Assembly: GCF_019039055.1 (NCBI RefSeq)
Contig: NZ_JAHOPB010000001.1
Location: forward strand, 1,426,001-1,490,000
DNA length: 64,000 nt
Source of the DNA: Reyranella humidisoli
Lineage (GTDB): Bacteria > Pseudomonadota > Alphaproteobacteria > Reyranellales > Reyranellaceae
Direction of reading: 5' to 3'
Shown: positions 39,657-46,058 of the stretch, piece by piece
How positions within the stretch are numbered: the first letter of the stretch is position 1
Layout of the letters: each line of letters starts with the position of its first letter
The notes under the pieces: generated by a model
Database searches by the model: none
The model's input: the letters and a program-made list of their open reading frames with translations, nothing else
Told to the model about the DNA's origin: nothing
Translations under genes and position numbers: made by a program

Positions 39657-40355
39657 ATGTCCGTGAACAATCGTGGCAAGAAAATCCTGTTGGTCGATGA
39701 CGATCAGGCGTTGCGTGGCGTGCTTGCGGAGCAGCTCGATCTCTACGACGGCTTCACGACGATCCAGGTCGGGACGGCGGCGGAGGGTCTCGAGAAGGCC
39801 AAGATCGCGCATTATGACGCGATCCTCCTGGACATCGGCCTGCCCGACATGGACGGGCGCGAACTGTGCAAACTGATGCGCCGCCAGGGCGTGCGGGCGC
39901 CGGTCATCATGCTGACCGCGGCCGACAGCGACGCAGACACGATTCTCGGCCTTGAATCCGGTGCAAACGACTACGTCACGAAGCCATTCCGCATCAACGT
40001 CCTGCTCGCCCGCCTGCGGGCCCATCTGCGCCAGCACGAGCGTAGCGAGGATGCGGTGATGACGATCGGTCCCTATGAATTCCATCCCGCGGCCAAGATG
40101 CTGATGGAGAAGGGCGGCAACAAGAAGGTCCGGCTGACCGACAAGGAAGCCTCGATCCTGAAATACCTGTTCCGCGCCGGCGACCGGCCGATCGCGCGCG
40201 ACGTGCTGCTGAACGAGGTCTGGGGCTACAATGCCGGCGTCACGACCCACACGCTGGAAACCCACATCTATCGGCTGCGCCAGAAGATCGAGAAGGATCC
40301 CGCCAGCGCCGCGATCCTGGTGACCGACCGGGGTGGGTACCGCCTTCAGCCGTAG
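39657..40355 (+). CDS. OmpR-family response regulator (CenR-like)
   Basis: A 232-residue regulator. Receiver: DDD at about 14-16, phospho-acceptor Asp in ILLDIGLPDMDG near residue 60, Thr in MLTAADSD and Lys in DYVTKPF. The winged helix ends with GVTTHTLETHIYRLRQKIE and RGGYRLQP. The sequence closely resembles the alphaproteobacterial envelope regulator CenR as I remember it, but orthology is not proven. No kinase gene is adjacent. Divergent from ribA with a 104-bp spacer; the first diiron gene follows 76 bp downstream. Confidence 0.88.
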   Translation: MSVNNRGKKILLVDDDQALRGVLAEQLDLYDGFTTIQVGTAAEGLEKAKIAHYDAILLDIGLPDMDGRELCKLMRRQGVRAPVIMLTAADSDADTILGLESGANDYVTKPFRINVLLARLRAHLRQHERSEDAVMTIGPYEFHPAAKMLMEKGGNKKVRLTDKEASILKYLFRAGDRPIARDVLLNEVWGYNAGVTTHTLETHIYRLRQKIEKDPASAAILVTDRGGYRLQP

Positions 40356-40375
40356 GGGCTTGCCAATTCGTGAAC

Positions 40376-40385
40376 GGAGCGTCAT
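40376..40385 (+). promoter_or_regulatory. Element GGAGCGTCAT shared with the second diiron gene
   Basis: GGAGCGTCAT lies 46 bp upstream of the first diiron start, and the same 10 bases lie at 43224-43233 upstream of the second, 55 bp before its start. Some flanking bases (TTCCG just after) also agree. Conservation in otherwise unlike spacers suggests a common regulatory site or promoter element, but common ancestry of the two leaders is an alternative. Confidence 0.45.
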
Positions 40386-40431
40386 CTTTTCCGCAAGCAA
40401 TATGTGACGACTTGCCCGGGAGGGTGATGCC

Positions 40432-41499
40432 ATGACCACGCAGCGGATTTACGCCCTGCCCGTCGACGTGACGCAGTGGACGTTCGACGGCGCGACCGAC
40501 CTCCAGTTCAACTGGGAATACGACGACGGCTCGTCGTCGCTGCTCGAGCTCTACGAGAAGGGCAAGCAACAGCAGTGGGACGCCAGCACGCGCCTCGACT
40601 GGTCGCTCGAACTCAATCCCGACAATCCGATGGAGCTGAAGGACGAGGCGATCTCGATCTACGGCACGGATTACTGGAACAGGATGAACGAGAAGGAGCG
40701 AAGCTGGCTCAGGCTCCATCTCCAGGCCAACTCGATCTCGCAGTTCATGCACGGCGAGCAGGGCGCGCTGATCGCCAGTGCCAAGATCGTCGGCACCGTC
40801 CCCGACATGAACGCCAAGTTCTATGCCGCCACCCAGGTGATGGACGAGGCGCGCCACGTCGAAGCCTACAAGCGGCTGCTGCACGAGAAGTTCAAGGTCG
40901 CCTATCCGATCAACAAGGCGCTGCAGACGCTGCTCGAGCAGACGCTGACCGACCGCCGCTGGGACATGACCTATCTCGGCATGCAGGTGCTGATCGAGGG
41001 TCTGGCGCTCGCTGCCTTCCAGTCGATCCGCGACAAGGCGGGCAACACGCTGGCGGGCGCCGTGAACGCCTATGTGATGCAGGACGAGGCGCGGCACGTT
41101 TCGTTCGGCCGCCTGGCGCTGCGCGAATACTATCCGCACCTCTCCGATGCCGAGCGCGACGAGCGCGAGGAGTTCGTGGTCGAGGCGCTCTATTTCATGC
41201 GCGACCGCTTCAACCAGTCCGAGGTCTGGGAGCGGCTCGGCCTGCCGGCCAAGGTGCTCGACGACATCCACTACAATTCCAAGCAGATGAATTCCTTCCG
41301 CGGCCGGCTGTTCAGCCGCGTGGTGCCGACGGTGAAGGATATCGGCCTGTGGGGTCCGCGCGTTCAGAAGGCGTTCGCCGAGATGGGCGTGATGGACTAC
41401 GCCAAGATCGATGTCGCCGAAGTCCTCGCCAACGACGGCAAGGTCGCCGACGACTTCGACCGGAAGATGTTCGTCGAGAAGTCGATCGCGGCGGAGTAG
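40432..41499 (+). CDS. Ferritin-like diiron oxygenase, paralog 1
   Basis: A 355-residue soluble, mostly helical protein. Carboxylate-bridged diiron ligands can be placed: Glu109 in MHGEQGAL, Glu139/His142 in MDEARHVE, Glu189 in VLIEGLAL and Glu219/His222 in QDEARHVS, giving the E...ExxH...E...ExxH pattern of ribonucleotide-reductase-R2-like and AurF-like oxygenases. It aligns without gaps to the protein at 43289 (259 of 355 identical by hand count). A GGGAGGG Shine-Dalgarno precedes the ATG. The divergent reductase nearby could supply electrons. The substrate is unknown. Confidence 0.8.
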   Translation: MTTQRIYALPVDVTQWTFDGATDLQFNWEYDDGSSSLLELYEKGKQQQWDASTRLDWSLELNPDNPMELKDEAISIYGTDYWNRMNEKERSWLRLHLQANSISQFMHGEQGALIASAKIVGTVPDMNAKFYAATQVMDEARHVEAYKRLLHEKFKVAYPINKALQTLLEQTLTDRRWDMTYLGMQVLIEGLALAAFQSIRDKAGNTLAGAVNAYVMQDEARHVSFGRLALREYYPHLSDAERDEREEFVVEALYFMRDRFNQSEVWERLGLPAKVLDDIHYNSKQMNSFRGRLFSRVVPTVKDIGLWGPRVQKAFAEMGVMDYAKIDVAEVLANDGKVADDFDRKMFVEKSIAAE

Positions 41500-41506
41500 C
41501 GCCGGG

Positions 41507-42166
41507 TCAGAGCAGAAGCAGCAACAGGACGAGCAAAGCGGCCGGGACGAGCAGCGGATAGGCCAGCACCGGCAGCAGCGCGCCGCCGATCACGGCCCCG
41601 ATCAGGTAGCCGGTCCAGGTGAGCGCCAGCAGCCATGTGTTCACGGCGGACGGCGGCGGTGTCGGCGACCCCGGCCAGAGCCGGTCGACGGCCGCGTCGG
41701 CGGTGCGCGCCAAGGTGCTGGTCACCACCACCGTGCTCACCGAATGGCCGGCGAAGCTGGTGATCGCCGAGGCCTGCAGCCCCATGGCGAAGGCCACGAT
41801 CATCACCGCATTCTCTTCGCTGACCGGGAGGAAGCCCACCACCGCGATGAGGACGGCTTCGAGCAGCAGGACCGCAGCCGGCCCCTTGAGCAGTCGCACC
41901 AGCACGCGCGCGAGCATGGCGCCGGGAAAGAAGGCGACCAGCGGCGTCAGGTGGTTCCAGGCGCCGAGATGGTTGCCCTTCGCCAGGTCGATGCCGGCCA
42001 GCACCGTGTTGCCGGTCATGTTTGCCGCAAACACGCCGTTCATGGTGACGTAACCCACGGCGTCGGCGATGCCGGCGACCACCGTCAGGATGGTCGCCTG
42101 CGCGAGGGGGCGGACGCTAATCGCTACACCACGTCGTAGGTGATCTCGACCTCGGCCCCGAAACAA
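41507..42166 (-). CDS. DUF1275 (YoaK-type) integral membrane protein
   Basis: A 219-residue polytopic protein with about six helices. The family signature is VVAGIADAVGYVTMNGVFAANMTGNTVLAG at the first helix pair, followed by a Ser/Thr-rich GHSVSTVVVTSTL motif. The function of the family is unknown. The start is uncertain: the only ATG is at 42166, which makes the gene overlap the reductase gene by 43 bp; later codons in frame are weak. It shares a strand with the reductase and is convergent with paralog 1 (7-bp gap), so it may belong to the oxygenase locus. Confidence 0.75.
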   Translation of the reverse strand: MFRGRGRDHLRRGVAISVRPLAQATILTVVAGIADAVGYVTMNGVFAANMTGNTVLAGIDLAKGNHLGAWNHLTPLVAFFPGAMLARVLVRLLKGPAAVLLLEAVLIAVVGFLPVSEENAVMIVAFAMGLQASAITSFAGHSVSTVVVTSTLARTADAAVDRLWPGSPTPPPSAVNTWLLALTWTGYLIGAVIGGALLPVLAYPLLVPAALLVLLLLLL

Positions 42167-43143
42167 TGGCCCTGGCAGGTCAGGATCCAGTTATTGGCGA
42201 GATCGTCGGGCGTGTAGATGTCGTTCTTGGCCAGCACGACCTTGCCCTTGATGGTCTTGGCCGCGCACGAGGCGCAGAACCCCTCCTCGCAGGAAGAGAG
42301 CGGGTTGAGCCCGCCGGCGCGAGCGGCTTCGAGAATGGTCTGGCCCTTTGCGTAGGCAACCTTGTGCGCCTTGCCCTCGAAATGGATGGTGATCTCGCCC
42401 GGGATCACGTCGCCCTCTTCGCTCGGCTCGACCGGAACCGCGTCGTTGCCCGAGGCCTCGAAGCGTTCGATCCGCACCTTCTCGTGCGGCATGCCGTGCG
42501 CGAACAGCGTCTGCTCGACCAGGCTCATGAAGGGGCCGGGGCCGCAGAGATAGACGTCGCCCGCCTCGAAACCCTTCATCGCCGCGACGATCTCCTCGGG
42601 CTTCAGGATGCCCTGCGTCGAATCGAGGTGATGGATCACCTCCAGCCGGCCGGGATGGGCCTTCGCCAGGGCCTCGAACTCGGCATCGAAGATCACGGAA
42701 GACCTGTCGCGGTTGGCATAGAGCAGCCGGATGCGCCGCGTGCCCTTCAGGGCGCTCTTGATCAGCGCCATCATCGGCGTGATGCCGCTGCCGCCACCGA
42801 ACAGGAGCAGGGGCGCGTCGCCCTCGCCCAGCACGAAGCGGCCGGCCGGCGGCAGCACGTCGAGCATGCCGCCTTCCTTCAGCGCGTCGTGGAACCAGTT
42901 GGAGCCCTTACCGCCGGCGACCCGCTTGATCGTGACCTTCGGCAGACCGTCGGTCTCGGGGGCGCTGGACAGCGAGTAGCAACGGTTGAATGTCCCGTCG
43001 GCGTGCGGGACGCGGAAGGTCAGGAACTGGCCCGCGCGATACCGGTACTTTTCAGCGAGTTCGGGTGGGACCTCCAGGACGAAGGAGCGCGCGTCCGGCG
43101 TTTCCTGGATGATCTTGGCAATGCGCAGCTGATTATAGGACAT
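42124..43143 (-). CDS. Ferredoxin-type FAD/[2Fe-2S] oxidoreductase (PaaE/KshB-like)
   Basis: A 339-residue electron-transfer flavoprotein. FAD-binding FNRCYSLSSAPET (RxYS motif near 54-57), NAD(P)H-binding LLFGGGSGITPMMALIK near 113 and LCGPGPFM near 205, and a C-terminal plant-type [2Fe-2S] domain: LSSCEEGFCASCAAK (C-x4-C-x2-C) and ILTCQGHCFG. This order (reductase then ferredoxin) is that of reductases that feed diiron and Rieske oxygenases such as PaaE, KshB and HmuX. It is divergent from diiron paralog 2 and is the natural donor candidate for both diiron proteins. Confidence 0.9.
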   Translation of the reverse strand: MSYNQLRIAKIIQETPDARSFVLEVPPELAEKYRYRAGQFLTFRVPHADGTFNRCYSLSSAPETDGLPKVTIKRVAGGKGSNWFHDALKEGGMLDVLPPAGRFVLGEGDAPLLLFGGGSGITPMMALIKSALKGTRRIRLLYANRDRSSVIFDAEFEALAKAHPGRLEVIHHLDSTQGILKPEEIVAAMKGFEAGDVYLCGPGPFMSLVEQTLFAHGMPHEKVRIERFEASGNDAVPVEPSEEGDVIPGEITIHFEGKAHKVAYAKGQTILEAARAGGLNPLSSCEEGFCASCAAKTIKGKVVLAKNDIYTPDDLANNWILTCQGHCFGAEVEITYDVV

Positions 43144-43185
43144 CAAAAACTCATCTTCAGATGCCCGTTTTCCGGGCGGACTCTC

Positions 43186-43202
43186 CTAGCAGACTGTGCT
43201 AG
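43186..43202. promoter_or_regulatory. Palindrome in the reductase/diiron divergent spacer
   Basis: CTAGCA, 5-nt spacer, TGCTAG: perfect 6-bp arms, 43 bp upstream of the reductase start and 86 bp before diiron paralog 2. It lies where a regulator could control both directions. Confidence 0.45.
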
Positions 43203-43223
43203 CGTCCGCCGAGAAAAATGAGC

Positions 43224-43247
43224 GGAGCGTCATTGTTCCGACGCTCC
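43224..43247. promoter_or_regulatory. Second palindrome upstream of diiron paralog 2
   Basis: GGAGCGTC, 8-nt spacer, GACGCTCC: perfect 8-bp arms ending 41 bp before the paralog 2 start. The left arm includes the element shared with paralog 1 (GGAGCGTCAT); the right arm is not conserved there. It looks like an operator for a dimeric regulator. Confidence 0.5.
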
Positions 43248-43288
43248 ATAGGGATGGGACAAGGTTCAGGGCCAGGAGGCAAGAGCCG

Positions 43289-44356
43289 ATGACGACGCAA
43301 AAAATTTATCAGCTGCCGGTCGAAATCACGAACTGGAAGTTCGACGGTGCCACCGAGATTGCGTTCAACTGGGAGTACGAGGACGGGTCCGCCGACCTGC
43401 TGAACCTGTACGAAAAGGGCAAGCAGCAGCAGTGGGACACCAGCACCCGTATCGACTGGTCCCAGGAGCTGTTCGAAGGCAACCCGATGGGCATGGCCGA
43501 CGAAACGATCCCGATCTACGGCTCTCCCTTCTGGGACAAGATGACCGACAAGGAGAAGGACTGGCTGCGCTTCAACCTGCAGTGCCATTCCATCTGCCAG
43601 TTCATGCACGGCGAGCAGGGCGCGCTGATCGCCACCGCCAAGATCGTGAACACCGTGCCGGACATGAACGCCAAGTTCTATGCCGCCACCCAGGTGATGG
43701 ACGAGGCACGTCACGTCGAGAGCTACAAGCGACTGATCCACGAGAAGTTCAAGGCGGCCTATCCAATCACGGAATCGCTGAAGAACCTGCTCGAGCAGAC
43801 GCTGACCGACCGCCGTTGGGACATGACCTATCTCGGCATGCAGGTGCTGATCGAGGGCCTGGCGCTCGCCGCCTTCCAGCGCATCCGCGACACCGCCAAG
43901 AACAACCTGGCCGGCGCCGTGAACGCCTACGTCATGCAGGACGAGGCGCGTCACGTCACGTTCGGCCGCATGGCGCTGCGCGAATATTATCCGCACCTCT
44001 CCGATGCCGAGCGCGCCGAGCGCGAGGAGTTCGTCGTCGAGGCGCTCTACTTCATGCGCGACCGCTTCAACCAGGGCGAAGTCTGGATGCGGTCCGGTCT
44101 GCCGGTGAAGGAAATGCTGGAGCACGCCTATCACTCGGGCGCCATGCAGCAGTTCCGCACCCGCCTGTTCACCCGCATCGTGCCGATCCTCAAGGAGATC
44201 GGCCTGTTCGGGCCGAAGGTGCAGAAGGCGCTGGGCGAAATGGGCGTGCTCGGCTACGCCGAGATCGACATCGAGAAGCTGATCGGCAACGACCTCAAGG
44301 TCGCCGAGGATTTCGATGCCAAGAAGTTCGTGAAGGAACAGATCGCCGCCGAGTAA
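43289..44356 (+). CDS. Ferritin-like diiron oxygenase, paralog 2
   Basis: A 355-residue protein, colinear and gapless with paralog 1. All six putative iron ligands are kept: Glu109, Glu139/His142, Glu189, Glu219/His222. The N- and C-terminal parts differ most (for example LPAKVLDDIH versus LPVKEMLEHA near 271), while the ligand helices are almost identical, consistent with functional divergence of substrate contacts. AGGAGG at good spacing supports the start at 43289. Divergent from the reductase and followed by a strong terminator 27 bp after the stop. Confidence 0.82.
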   Translation: MTTQKIYQLPVEITNWKFDGATEIAFNWEYEDGSADLLNLYEKGKQQQWDTSTRIDWSQELFEGNPMGMADETIPIYGSPFWDKMTDKEKDWLRFNLQCHSICQFMHGEQGALIATAKIVNTVPDMNAKFYAATQVMDEARHVESYKRLIHEKFKAAYPITESLKNLLEQTLTDRRWDMTYLGMQVLIEGLALAAFQRIRDTAKNNLAGAVNAYVMQDEARHVTFGRMALREYYPHLSDAERAEREEFVVEALYFMRDRFNQGEVWMRSGLPVKEMLEHAYHSGAMQQFRTRLFTRIVPILKEIGLFGPKVQKALGEMGVLGYAEIDIEKLIGNDLKVAEDFDAKKFVKEQIAAE

Positions 44357-44563: not shown

Positions 44564-45223
44564 CTACTGACAGGTATCGATCCGCGGCGCCGCGCCGAGC
44601 ACCGTCGCCACCTTCGTGATGTCGATGCAGCGTGTGCCGATCCACGCCTTGCCCTGCACGAAGATCGCGAAGCGGGCGAAGGCGTCGGCCTGTGCGTCGG
44701 GTGTCGGCCTCTTGCGGGCCAGCAGCCAGCTCAATGCGTAGATGTTGCCGGTCGCGAAGTCGGCCGACGCGATGTCGGGATCCTTCTGCCAGAGGGCCAC
44801 GTTCTTCTTCGCCGCGCCGGTCGCGTCGGCAATGCCGGCCAGCCACGTGTTGGCGTTCGCCGCCAGCGCGTAGGAGCCGCCGTTCTGGGCGATCAGCGCC
44901 TTCACCTCCCCGGCCGCGCCGACATAGCCCTGGCCCTCGACCGTGCTGCCGGCGCAGCCGACCCGGCACAGCGCCACGAACATCAGATACTCGGCAAGGA
45001 TGATCTCTATGTTGCCGTTGTTGTGCCGTCGCCAGGCGCGCGCGAGGTTCCAGCCTTGCGTCAGCTCCGCGCCGGTCCAGGGCTTGGCCGCCTGCGGCGT
45101 GTCGCGCTCGAGCTCGCCGATCACGGCCTGCGCGGCGGCCTGCCATTCGGGAGGGATCTGGGCGGCGGCCGGTGTGGCGGCGCCGAGCAGGATCAGCAGC
45201 AGGGTCGAGAAGACTCGTCTCAT
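44564..45223 (-). CDS. Exported protein of unknown function
   Basis: A 219-residue protein with a signal peptide (MRRVFSTLLLILLGAATPA with AAAQ before cleavage). The mature part is alpha-helical, with YLMFVALCRVGCAGS and a C-terminal GTRCIDITK, giving a few cysteines that may pair. No domain is recognised. It lies 18 bp after the next upstream gene on the same strand, which may be co-transcribed with it. Confidence 0.65.
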   Translation of the reverse strand: MRRVFSTLLLILLGAATPAAAQIPPEWQAAAQAVIGELERDTPQAAKPWTGAELTQGWNLARAWRRHNNGNIEIILAEYLMFVALCRVGCAGSTVEGQGYVGAAGEVKALIAQNGGSYALAANANTWLAGIADATGAAKKNVALWQKDPDIASADFATGNIYALSWLLARKRPTPDAQADAFARFAIFVQGKAWIGTRCIDITKVATVLGAAPRIDTCQ

Positions 45224-45241
45224 GTCGCGCTCCCTAGATGA

Positions 45242-45907
45242 TCAGTATTTGCGAGCCGTCTTGCGATCGCGGCTTTCGTATTGAACGATGTCGTCGGCCC
45301 GCAGCACGGTGGCGTCGGGCGGCATCAGCCAGCGCATCTGTGCCGGCTTGATCAGGCGGTAGTGGCGGGCATCGTCGAGCGCCGCGCCGACGTCCCAGCA
45401 ATTTTCTTCGCTGGTGATCCATTCGTCGGTCGCGAAGCGGCGCAGGTCGATCGAGGCCGAATAGGTGCGCAGCGTCTTGCGGCCCTTGTTGAAGTACTCG
45501 TGGAAGTACGACATCGCGAGCTCGCGCAGGCTGCGATAGACCGGGTCGCGCCAGCGCAGCCAGGCATGGTTGCTCTTGGAGATCGCGCCCCAGCAGCCGT
45601 CGCGGCGGAACAGGGTGACGACGTGATCGGAATCCTCGCGCGTGGCCGTCAGGTCCATGACCAGCGGCGGCTCCCCCTGCAGCCACAGTGCGCAGGCCGC
45701 GACGAAAGCCGCCTCCAGGCAATGGGCCTCGCGATGGCGCAGCACGCCGCGCACGGACCGCAGGCTGTCGCCGCCCTGCTCGAAATTGGCGGGGAGGGCA
45801 GACACGTATTCCTGCACGCGCTGCGGCGTGCGCAGCGAGGTGAGGATGCGGCCTTCGGTGGCGGTGAGGCCGAGCTCGGCAGGCGTGGGGCGTTTGCGTC
45901 TGCGCAT
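45242..45907 (-). CDS. Putative transglutaminase-like protein
   Basis: A 221-residue soluble protein. A cysteine-containing helix [17 protein letters not shown] near residues 67-83 precedes strands LVMDLTA and [18 protein letters not shown] with a possible catalytic His, and an Asn/His-bearing KSNHAWL. The C-H-D order on helix and strands resembles transglutaminase-like cysteine proteases. The family is not certain. The open frame extends upstream into the tRNA-Ala gene; those extra codons are an artefact, and the ATG at 45907 is the first sensible start. Confidence 0.6.
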
Positions 45908-45982
45908 CGAGTGCAATTGTGCCGGGATGCGCCGTGGCAGGCTAGTAAATGAAGCCGGCCATCGAAAAAGGATCGGGGTGGT

Positions 45983-46058
45983 TGGTGGAGCTGAGGGGGA
46001 TCGAACCCCTGACCTCCTCATTGCGAACGAGGCGCTCTCCCAGCTGAGCTACAGCCCC
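45983..46058 (-). tRNA. tRNA-Ala (anticodon CGC)
   Basis: A 76-nt cloverleaf with encoded CCA. Acceptor GGGGCTG pairs with CAGCTCC, including the G3-U70 wobble that marks alanine tRNAs. The D-arm is GCTCAGCTGGGAGAGC, the anticodon loop TTCGCAA gives CGC, and the T-arm is GGGTTCGATCCCC. Confidence 0.95.

Follow-up and report, generated by a model that had tools for sequence, protein, structure and literature searches.

The closest described counterpart of the locus of Reyranella humidisoli analysed here is the DnfA/DnfB pair of Alcaligenes (Dirammox), in which a diiron protein of the Pfam family AurF (PF11583) is encoded together with an FNR-like reductase carrying FAD/NAD and 2Fe-2S domains (PMC9478400, PMC11160463). 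DnfA has a metal site of three histidines and four carboxylates, a set described as largely unique to N-oxygenases; two histidines and four carboxylates are the ligands of most nonheme diiron hydroxylases (PMC12101540). In vitro, DnfA was active with free FAD and NADH and the addition of DnfB made no significant difference (PMC9478400), so that the electron route is not settled even for DnfA/DnfB. A stretch of 64,000 nucleotides of R. humidisoli (hereafter the window; G000:C1:1426001-1490000 of the 5.5-Mb genome) likewise holds a PF11583 gene beside an FNR-like reductase gene, but differs from the Alcaligenes pair in that the oxidase gene is duplicated (D1 and D2), the reductase gene is divergent from D2, the diiron genes share a dyad element, and the predicted metal sites consist of two His and four Glu. 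Together with an unlinked paralogue, D4, these genes probably constitute a small dedicated oxidative regulon, in which several diiron oxidases would be served by one NADH reductase. Neither the protein family nor the locus is named in the titles and abstracts among the literature matches listed, and no paper combining Reyranella with diiron or with ferritin-like proteins was found.

Organization of the locus

The genes and elements on which this proposal is built are the following:

40432-41499, + strand: D1, AurF-fold diiron protein, 355 aa, predicted 2-His/4-Glu site
43289-44356, + strand: D2, paralogue of D1 (73% identical) and partner of the reductase, 355 aa
42124-43146, - strand: reductase with FAD, NAD and [2Fe-2S] domains
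40371-40389, + strand: putative control element before D1, TGAACGGAGCGTCATCTTT, 61 bp before the ATG
43219-43237, + strand: putative control element before D2, TGAGCGGAGCGTCATTGTT, 70 bp before the ATG, in the D2/reductase intergenic region
G000:C1:2868046-2869170, outside the window: D4, third AurF-like diiron paralogue, 374 aa, transcribed divergently from a gene judged by eye to be purC-like

D1 and D2 flank the reductase gene and a gene for a DUF1275 membrane protein, which lie where an earlier note on this DNA had placed them; position 40376, from which that note let the locus begin, is not the start of a gene. The note had described two ferritin-like proteins of 355 residues that align without gaps at 259 identical positions, and a recount gave exactly 259/355. 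For D2 this length follows from the choice of the start codon, as the GTG at position 43196 gives 386 residues and the start of MTTQ at position 43289 gives 355, the length of D1. The start codons of D2 and the divergent reductase gene are 143 bp apart.

The diiron proteins D1 and D2

Both proteins matched the Pfam family AurF (71.6 bits for D1 and 63.4 bits for D2; cut-off 29.6), and no NCBIfam model scored above its cut-off for D1, D2 or the other members scored. Membership of the pair in a characterised family of known substrate, which would have spoken against the reading of the earlier note, did not emerge from the searches made, as no curated family above cut-off supplies a substrate. 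Judged by their sequences, D1 and D2 belong to a protein family without a curated name. A convincing relative in the PDB is likewise not apparent at this level: the best match of D1 had an E-value of 0.071, AurF and CmlI were absent from its matches, and the best match of a 15-row profile was SaR2loxII (E 0.0022).

An AlphaFold model of D2 (pLDDT 82.4, pTM 0.82) predicts an R2/R2lox/AurF-type bundle. Comparison of the model with PDB structures (VIA) gave Z-scores of 20.4-21.6 among the 50 matches listed, including R2, R2lox, AurF, and CmlI, and the top matches by E-value in Foldseek were aldehyde-deformylating oxygenases. The six candidate iron ligands of the earlier note (E109, E139/H142, E189, E219/H222) are kept in both proteins and are invariant in 89 of 89 aligned sequences, as are D138 and D218; this alignment comprises 12 D1, 16 D2, and 61 other sequences and leaves aside five very distant rows of the 94-row tree. 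In the D2 model the ligands sit on four long helices (residues 87-122, 126-154, 177-202, and 206-236). A four-helix bundle with the ligand order E, ExxH, E, ExxH is characteristic of the ferritin-like diiron superfamily, to which sequence and predicted fold assign these proteins, and the metal site is of the 2-His/4-Glu type, predicted to hold two irons. Pfam assignment, model, structure comparison, and invariant ligands thus support the diiron fold and site proposed before.

In the phylogenetic tree the D1 clade (12 rows) and the D2 clade (16 rows) have supports of 100/98 and 100/99, respectively, the latter also taking in a sister genus and three extra copies. The closest named relatives of D2 among the matches listed are proteins of Reyranella and of metagenome-assembled genomes of Rhodospirillales (97-98% identity). 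From a divergence of the paralogues in the C-terminal third, the earlier note had surmised two substrates or a heteromer. Eight of the 15 fixed differences between D1 and D2 do lie beyond residue 263, but the N-terminal third is about equally divergent (identities by thirds 79/118, 103/118, and 77/119), and we rejected the C-terminal divergence as a sign of two substrates.

The reductase and its association with D2

The reductase is composed of the Pfam domains FAD_binding_6, NAD_binding_1, and Fer2 and has the corresponding motifs, namely RCYS for FAD, GGGSGI and CGPGPF for NAD, and C-x4-C-x2-C ... C for the C-terminal [2Fe-2S] cluster. Domains, their order, and motifs agree with its initial description as a flavin/[2Fe-2S] reductase of the PaaE/KshB type. 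The model TIGR02160 (PaaE) matched over almost the full length with 212.1 bits, below its cut-off of 420.8, so that the protein is best called PaaE-like. PaaE serves PaaABCD and reductases of the KshB type serve a Rieske oxygenase; the likeness to these proteins lies in domain order and cofactor motifs, whereas the partner at the present locus is a single-gene diiron protein. In the genome of R. humidisoli the reductase is the sole match at E<=1e-25.

The association of this gene with D2 was followed in 37 genomes of the genus, the present one included. D1 was found in 36 of them, once as a fragment, and D2 in 35, of which two have it in pieces; both are complete and lie within about 6 kb on one contig in 26 genomes, and three more have them on the same contig with one partner truncated. 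In genome G016, a single contig, D1 and D2 are about 490 kb apart, and there the reductase stays with D2 and a response regulator gene with D1. The reductase starts 58-222 bp from the start of a diiron gene in 41 of 43 loci with a reductase match, which represent 37 distinct intergenic sequences and some genomes twice; the two exceptions lack D2 or have it truncated where the stretch ends.

The sister genus has the pairing as well, and so do genome G081 (locus L074, with a reductase of 55% identity) and Burkholderiaceae bacterium 16 (locus L137, with a reductase of 44% identity whose gene adjoins a TetR gene). The tree places L074 and L137 in a clade neighbouring those of D1 and D2, which leaves two histories for the pairing, an early origin followed by frequent loss or repeated gain. 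In genome G079, the gene of a far relative (37% identity) is preceded on its own strand by that of a reductase homologue (30%). The link between reductase and diiron gene, which the earlier note drew from proximity and was ready to give up if the two were never adjacent in relatives, is hence retained with D2 within the genus, and also in the sister genus and two further lineages, yet only two of 68 loci from other families have the pairing.

A putative shared control element

A block common to the D1 upstream regions and the alignment of D2 intergenic regions was recognised by comparing the two. It contains a dyad of roughly TGAC-N6-GTCAT and is located about 40-110 bp upstream of D1, D2, and D4. 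Seven genomes of 5.5 to 6.5 Mb each contain exactly two copies of TGANCNNNGCGTCATNNTT, and all 14 copies lie 59-71 bp before D1 or D2; the reversed pattern used as control gave no match. In genome G029, D1 and D2 are on different contigs. When the best match to TGANCGGAGCGTCA was determined, 26 of 33 distinct D1 upstream regions and 35 of 37 D2-type upstream regions had 0-3 mismatches (the other two D2-type regions, one on a truncated contig, had four), a level reached by 464 of 14,000 composition shuffles. The copy before D1 in genomes G016 and G003 is a perfect palindrome, TGACGGGCCCGTCA. Some Reyranella-type genomes carry an extra D copy without a reductase; of three such copies, two retain the element (0-1 mismatches), and the third has it with four mismatches.

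D4 extends the element beyond the window. The protein has 32% identity with D1 (169 residues) and 29% with D2 (205 residues), and scores below the Pfam AurF cut-off; in this one sequence the residue numbers of the ExxH motifs are unchanged and Val takes the place of the third histidine of AurF. D4 is present in 35 of the 37 genus genomes (once as a fragment). The relaxed pattern TGANNNNNNCGTCATNNTT, searched in 15 genomes, gave 47 rows, 23 of them at diiron genes, including sites just before D4. TGAC-N5-CGTCAT precedes the start of D4 by 39-42 bp in 31 of 31 upstream regions. As this very expression served to select the 28 distinct sites, their arms are constant by construction; the preceding AAAAG and the following ATT, which are not part of the pattern, are nearly constant as well, and the middle five bases vary, which gives the sites the look of a putative protein-binding dyad.

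The 23-bp form AAADNTGANNNNNNCGTCAYNNT was searched in 24 genomes of the family, 23 of which had a match. Its 52 rows correspond to 47 distinct places after removal of five double reports of palindromes, and all 47 are located just before a diiron gene (23 before D4, 19 before D2, three before D1, and two before extra D copies; in G012 we assigned which copy is D2 and which is the extra one, and the site of G222 is that of D4), with one match for the reversed control. The D1 site of the window itself is matched by the 19-bp form and not by the 23-bp form. The symmetry of the element suggests a dimeric repressor or activator. A scan for sigma-70 promoters gave no match. A further AurF-like paralogue, D5 (G016:C1:29074-29847 and eight other genomes; 29-31% identical to D1), occurs in nine genus members, and a script scan of nine stretches upstream of it revealed no dyad.

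Proposed system and alternative explanations

The sequences, the predicted fold, the ligand set, the pairing of reductase and D2 in the family, and the element before the diiron genes are the basis of the following proposal. The reductase would take two electrons from NAD(P)H via its flavin and pass them singly through the [2Fe-2S] cluster to D2 with its 2-His/4-Glu diiron centre; the centres of D1 and the unlinked D4 would probably be supplied in the same way. The reduced centre would activate O2 and oxidise a small organic substrate by C-H hydroxylation, desaturation, or a similar reaction, a chemistry that would differ from the six-electron N-oxidation of AurF. One regulator recognising the TGAC-N6-GTCAT dyad would switch the diiron genes and the reductase gene together. 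Electron transfer among these proteins, the O2 chemistry, the single regulator, and the sharing of the reductase by D1 and D4 are what we infer beyond the observations. More tentatively, it is possible that D1, D2, D4, and the one reductase represent an undescribed multi-oxidase regulon of the Reyranella lineage with one dedicated regulator, whose oxidases may catalyse successive steps or form a mixed oligomer. The 'self-contained oxygenase system' of the earlier note was drawn too narrowly, as the unlinked D4 has the same control element.

Several results count against this proposal. Concerning the reductase, 66 of 68 other-family loci with a D relative (13 and 55 from two scans, some repeating a record and some short) have no such reductase nearby, so that the protein family can do without this partner; no reductase of their own accompanies D1, D4, or the extra D copies (none is near the three extra copies or an 82% identical relative); and 12 of 13 loci with a reductase homologue from other genomes lack a D relative. 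Concerning the element, seven of the 33 distinct D1 upstream regions keep TGANCGGAGCGTCA poorly (4-6 mismatches), and the element is absent before the D gene in all 61 loci outside the family. Looser searches are less specific, as 24 of the 47 rows of TGANNNNNNCGTCATNNTT are away from diiron genes (reversed control, two), eight of the 12 exact matches to TGANCGGAGCGTCA in eight genomes are at D1 or D2, a search of nine genomes with TGACGNNNNCGTCAT yielded 6-10 rows in each with few at diiron genes, and with two mismatches allowed the count in the window was that of chance (3 versus 3.66 expected). The places away from diiron genes could be chance matches or weaker sites of the same regulator. 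Moreover, the 19- and 23-bp patterns were fitted after the promoters had been seen and the genomes searched are relatives; their sensitivity therefore means little, and it is the absence of other targets that is informative.

The 66 of 68 and the 12 of 13 loci just mentioned also speak for an alternative that we consider unlikely, in which D1 and D2 resemble R2lox or ferroxidases and work without a reductase, and the reductase serves another oxygenase and is a mere neighbour. R2lox shares the fold with the D2 model (7qbp, Z 21.6), SaR2loxII is the best profile match in the PDB, and 14 of 15 members matched the R2lox model of NCBIfam weakly (D1 with 22.8 bits against an equivalog cut-off of 194, D2 not at all). 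However, the Val-Tyr crosslink of R2lox, whose residues are named as V72 and Y162 in PDB titles, presumably corresponds to Ala112 and Met184, which we placed by their spacing to the ligands and which are invariant in the 89 sequences, and reductase and D2 have stayed paired in this genus and its sister genus as well as in G081 and the Burkholderiaceae genome.

A function as N-oxygenases of the AurF/CmlI/DnfA type, in which an amine or hydroxylamine would be the substrate and the reductase would correspond to DnfB, appears quite improbable. It agrees with the Pfam AurF match above cut-off over the whole domain, with the fold (2jcd, Z 20.8; 5hyh, Z 20.4) and the D-E-x-x-H pairs shared with AurF and CmlI, and with the pairing of a PF11583 protein and an FNR-like FAD/NAD/2Fe-2S reductase in DnfA/DnfB (PMC9478400, PMC11160463). 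D1 and D2 differ from AurF and CmlI in the third histidine ligand: its place, four residues before E219, is taken by Val215 in all 89 sequences, and membership in the N-oxygenases fails on this predicted ligand set. An amidotransferase such as DnfC was not matched among the ten window proteins scanned with Pfam.

That the shared element is a leftover of duplication or an ordinary promoter, as the descent of D1 and D2 from a duplication, the inheritance of promoters in related genomes, and the occurrence of looser forms elsewhere might suggest, is very unlikely in view of 16 of 19 identical bases within the elements of the window against near-chance flanks (15/60 and 10/42 in register; 35% and 45% at the best small shifts), of the dyad with varying middle bases in 31 of 31 upstream regions of D4, which is about 30% identical and located elsewhere in the genome, and of the lack of any place of the 23-bp form away from diiron genes in 24 genomes.

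Other genes and elements of the locus

Four further features lie close to or between the genes discussed above:

41507-42166, - strand: DUF1275 membrane protein
39657-40355, + strand: OmpR-family response regulator, neighbour of D1 in the genus loci
43186-43202, + strand: second dyad, CTAGCA-N5-TGCTAG, in the reductase/D2 intergenic region; most of it is conserved in the alignment of the genus
43224-43247, + strand: perfect inverted repeat, GGAGCGTC-N8-GACGCTCC, overlapping the D2 element

The DUF1275 protein (Pfam score 135.1 bits), which the earlier note had counted as part of the set, was detected in 13 of 19 loci holding D1, reductase, and D2 and not in the other six; elsewhere its slot is filled by, e.g., an adenosine-deaminase-like protein or a SulP-like transporter (judged by eye), and it is probably a variable passenger and not a component of the system.

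The response regulator is 93-98% identical across the genus loci and adjoins D1 in the loci fetched; no histidine kinase was present among the ten window proteins scanned with Pfam. Response regulators of the OmpR type usually bind direct repeats, and for this reason the neighbouring regulator is not a natural candidate for binding the dyad.

Both arms of the inverted repeat GGAGCGTC-N8-GACGCTCC are changed together in one other genome (represented by two loci, L092 = L117). The 17-bp dyad CTAGCA-N5-TGCTAG has one exact match in the present genome. As the mark of a wider regulon it was rejected, since it occurs exactly once in three of four genomes and not in G016, and its near matches are fewer than those of the reversed control. 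Two conserved genes adjoining D2 (219 and 259 aa, 44564-46021) had no match in Pfam, NCBIfam, or PHROGs.

Neighbours of related genes and possible substrates

In other organisms, enoyl-CoA hydratase genes adjoin the D gene in Minwuia and lie near it in the sister genus. Related regulators are encoded next to or near D in several lineages (six loci) and are of the MerR type by Pfam where scanned. Five actinomycete relatives of D lie near polyketide synthase (PKS), acyl carrier protein (ACP), ketosynthase, or MFS genes, and these loci are likely biosynthetic clusters. A Pfam scan of 68 neighbours, consisting of 66 of the 94 immediate neighbours and two Minwuia genes added by hand (28 were set aside by eye, namely the reductases, short open reading frames, frames seemingly on the wrong strand, and several actinomycete genes), revealed two enoyl-CoA hydratases, two acyl-CoA dehydrogenases, and four MerR proteins. 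These neighbours give a hint of acyl chemistry under inducible control. BioE, which is ferritin-like and has four Glu and two His, is able to act on acyl thioesters (PMC12915131); a kinship with it is not claimed. The mixture of neighbours counts against the proposal to the extent that no substrate follows from it, and an acyl-CoA or polyketide substrate is not claimed, the 68 scanned genes being too mixed.

Conclusions

Taken together, the observation of two paired diiron genes with a reductase gene between them is confirmed, and its interpretation, which is partly supported, was improved by leaving out the DUF1275 protein and including D4 and the shared element. Proteins that combine the AurF fold with a 2-His/4-Glu site are widespread, with at least 576 stretches encoding a relative. 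For this family the partner reductase is a candidate electron donor for assays, and the shared DNA element could be used as a bait for the proposed regulator; a ligand of that regulator may in turn indicate the substrate.

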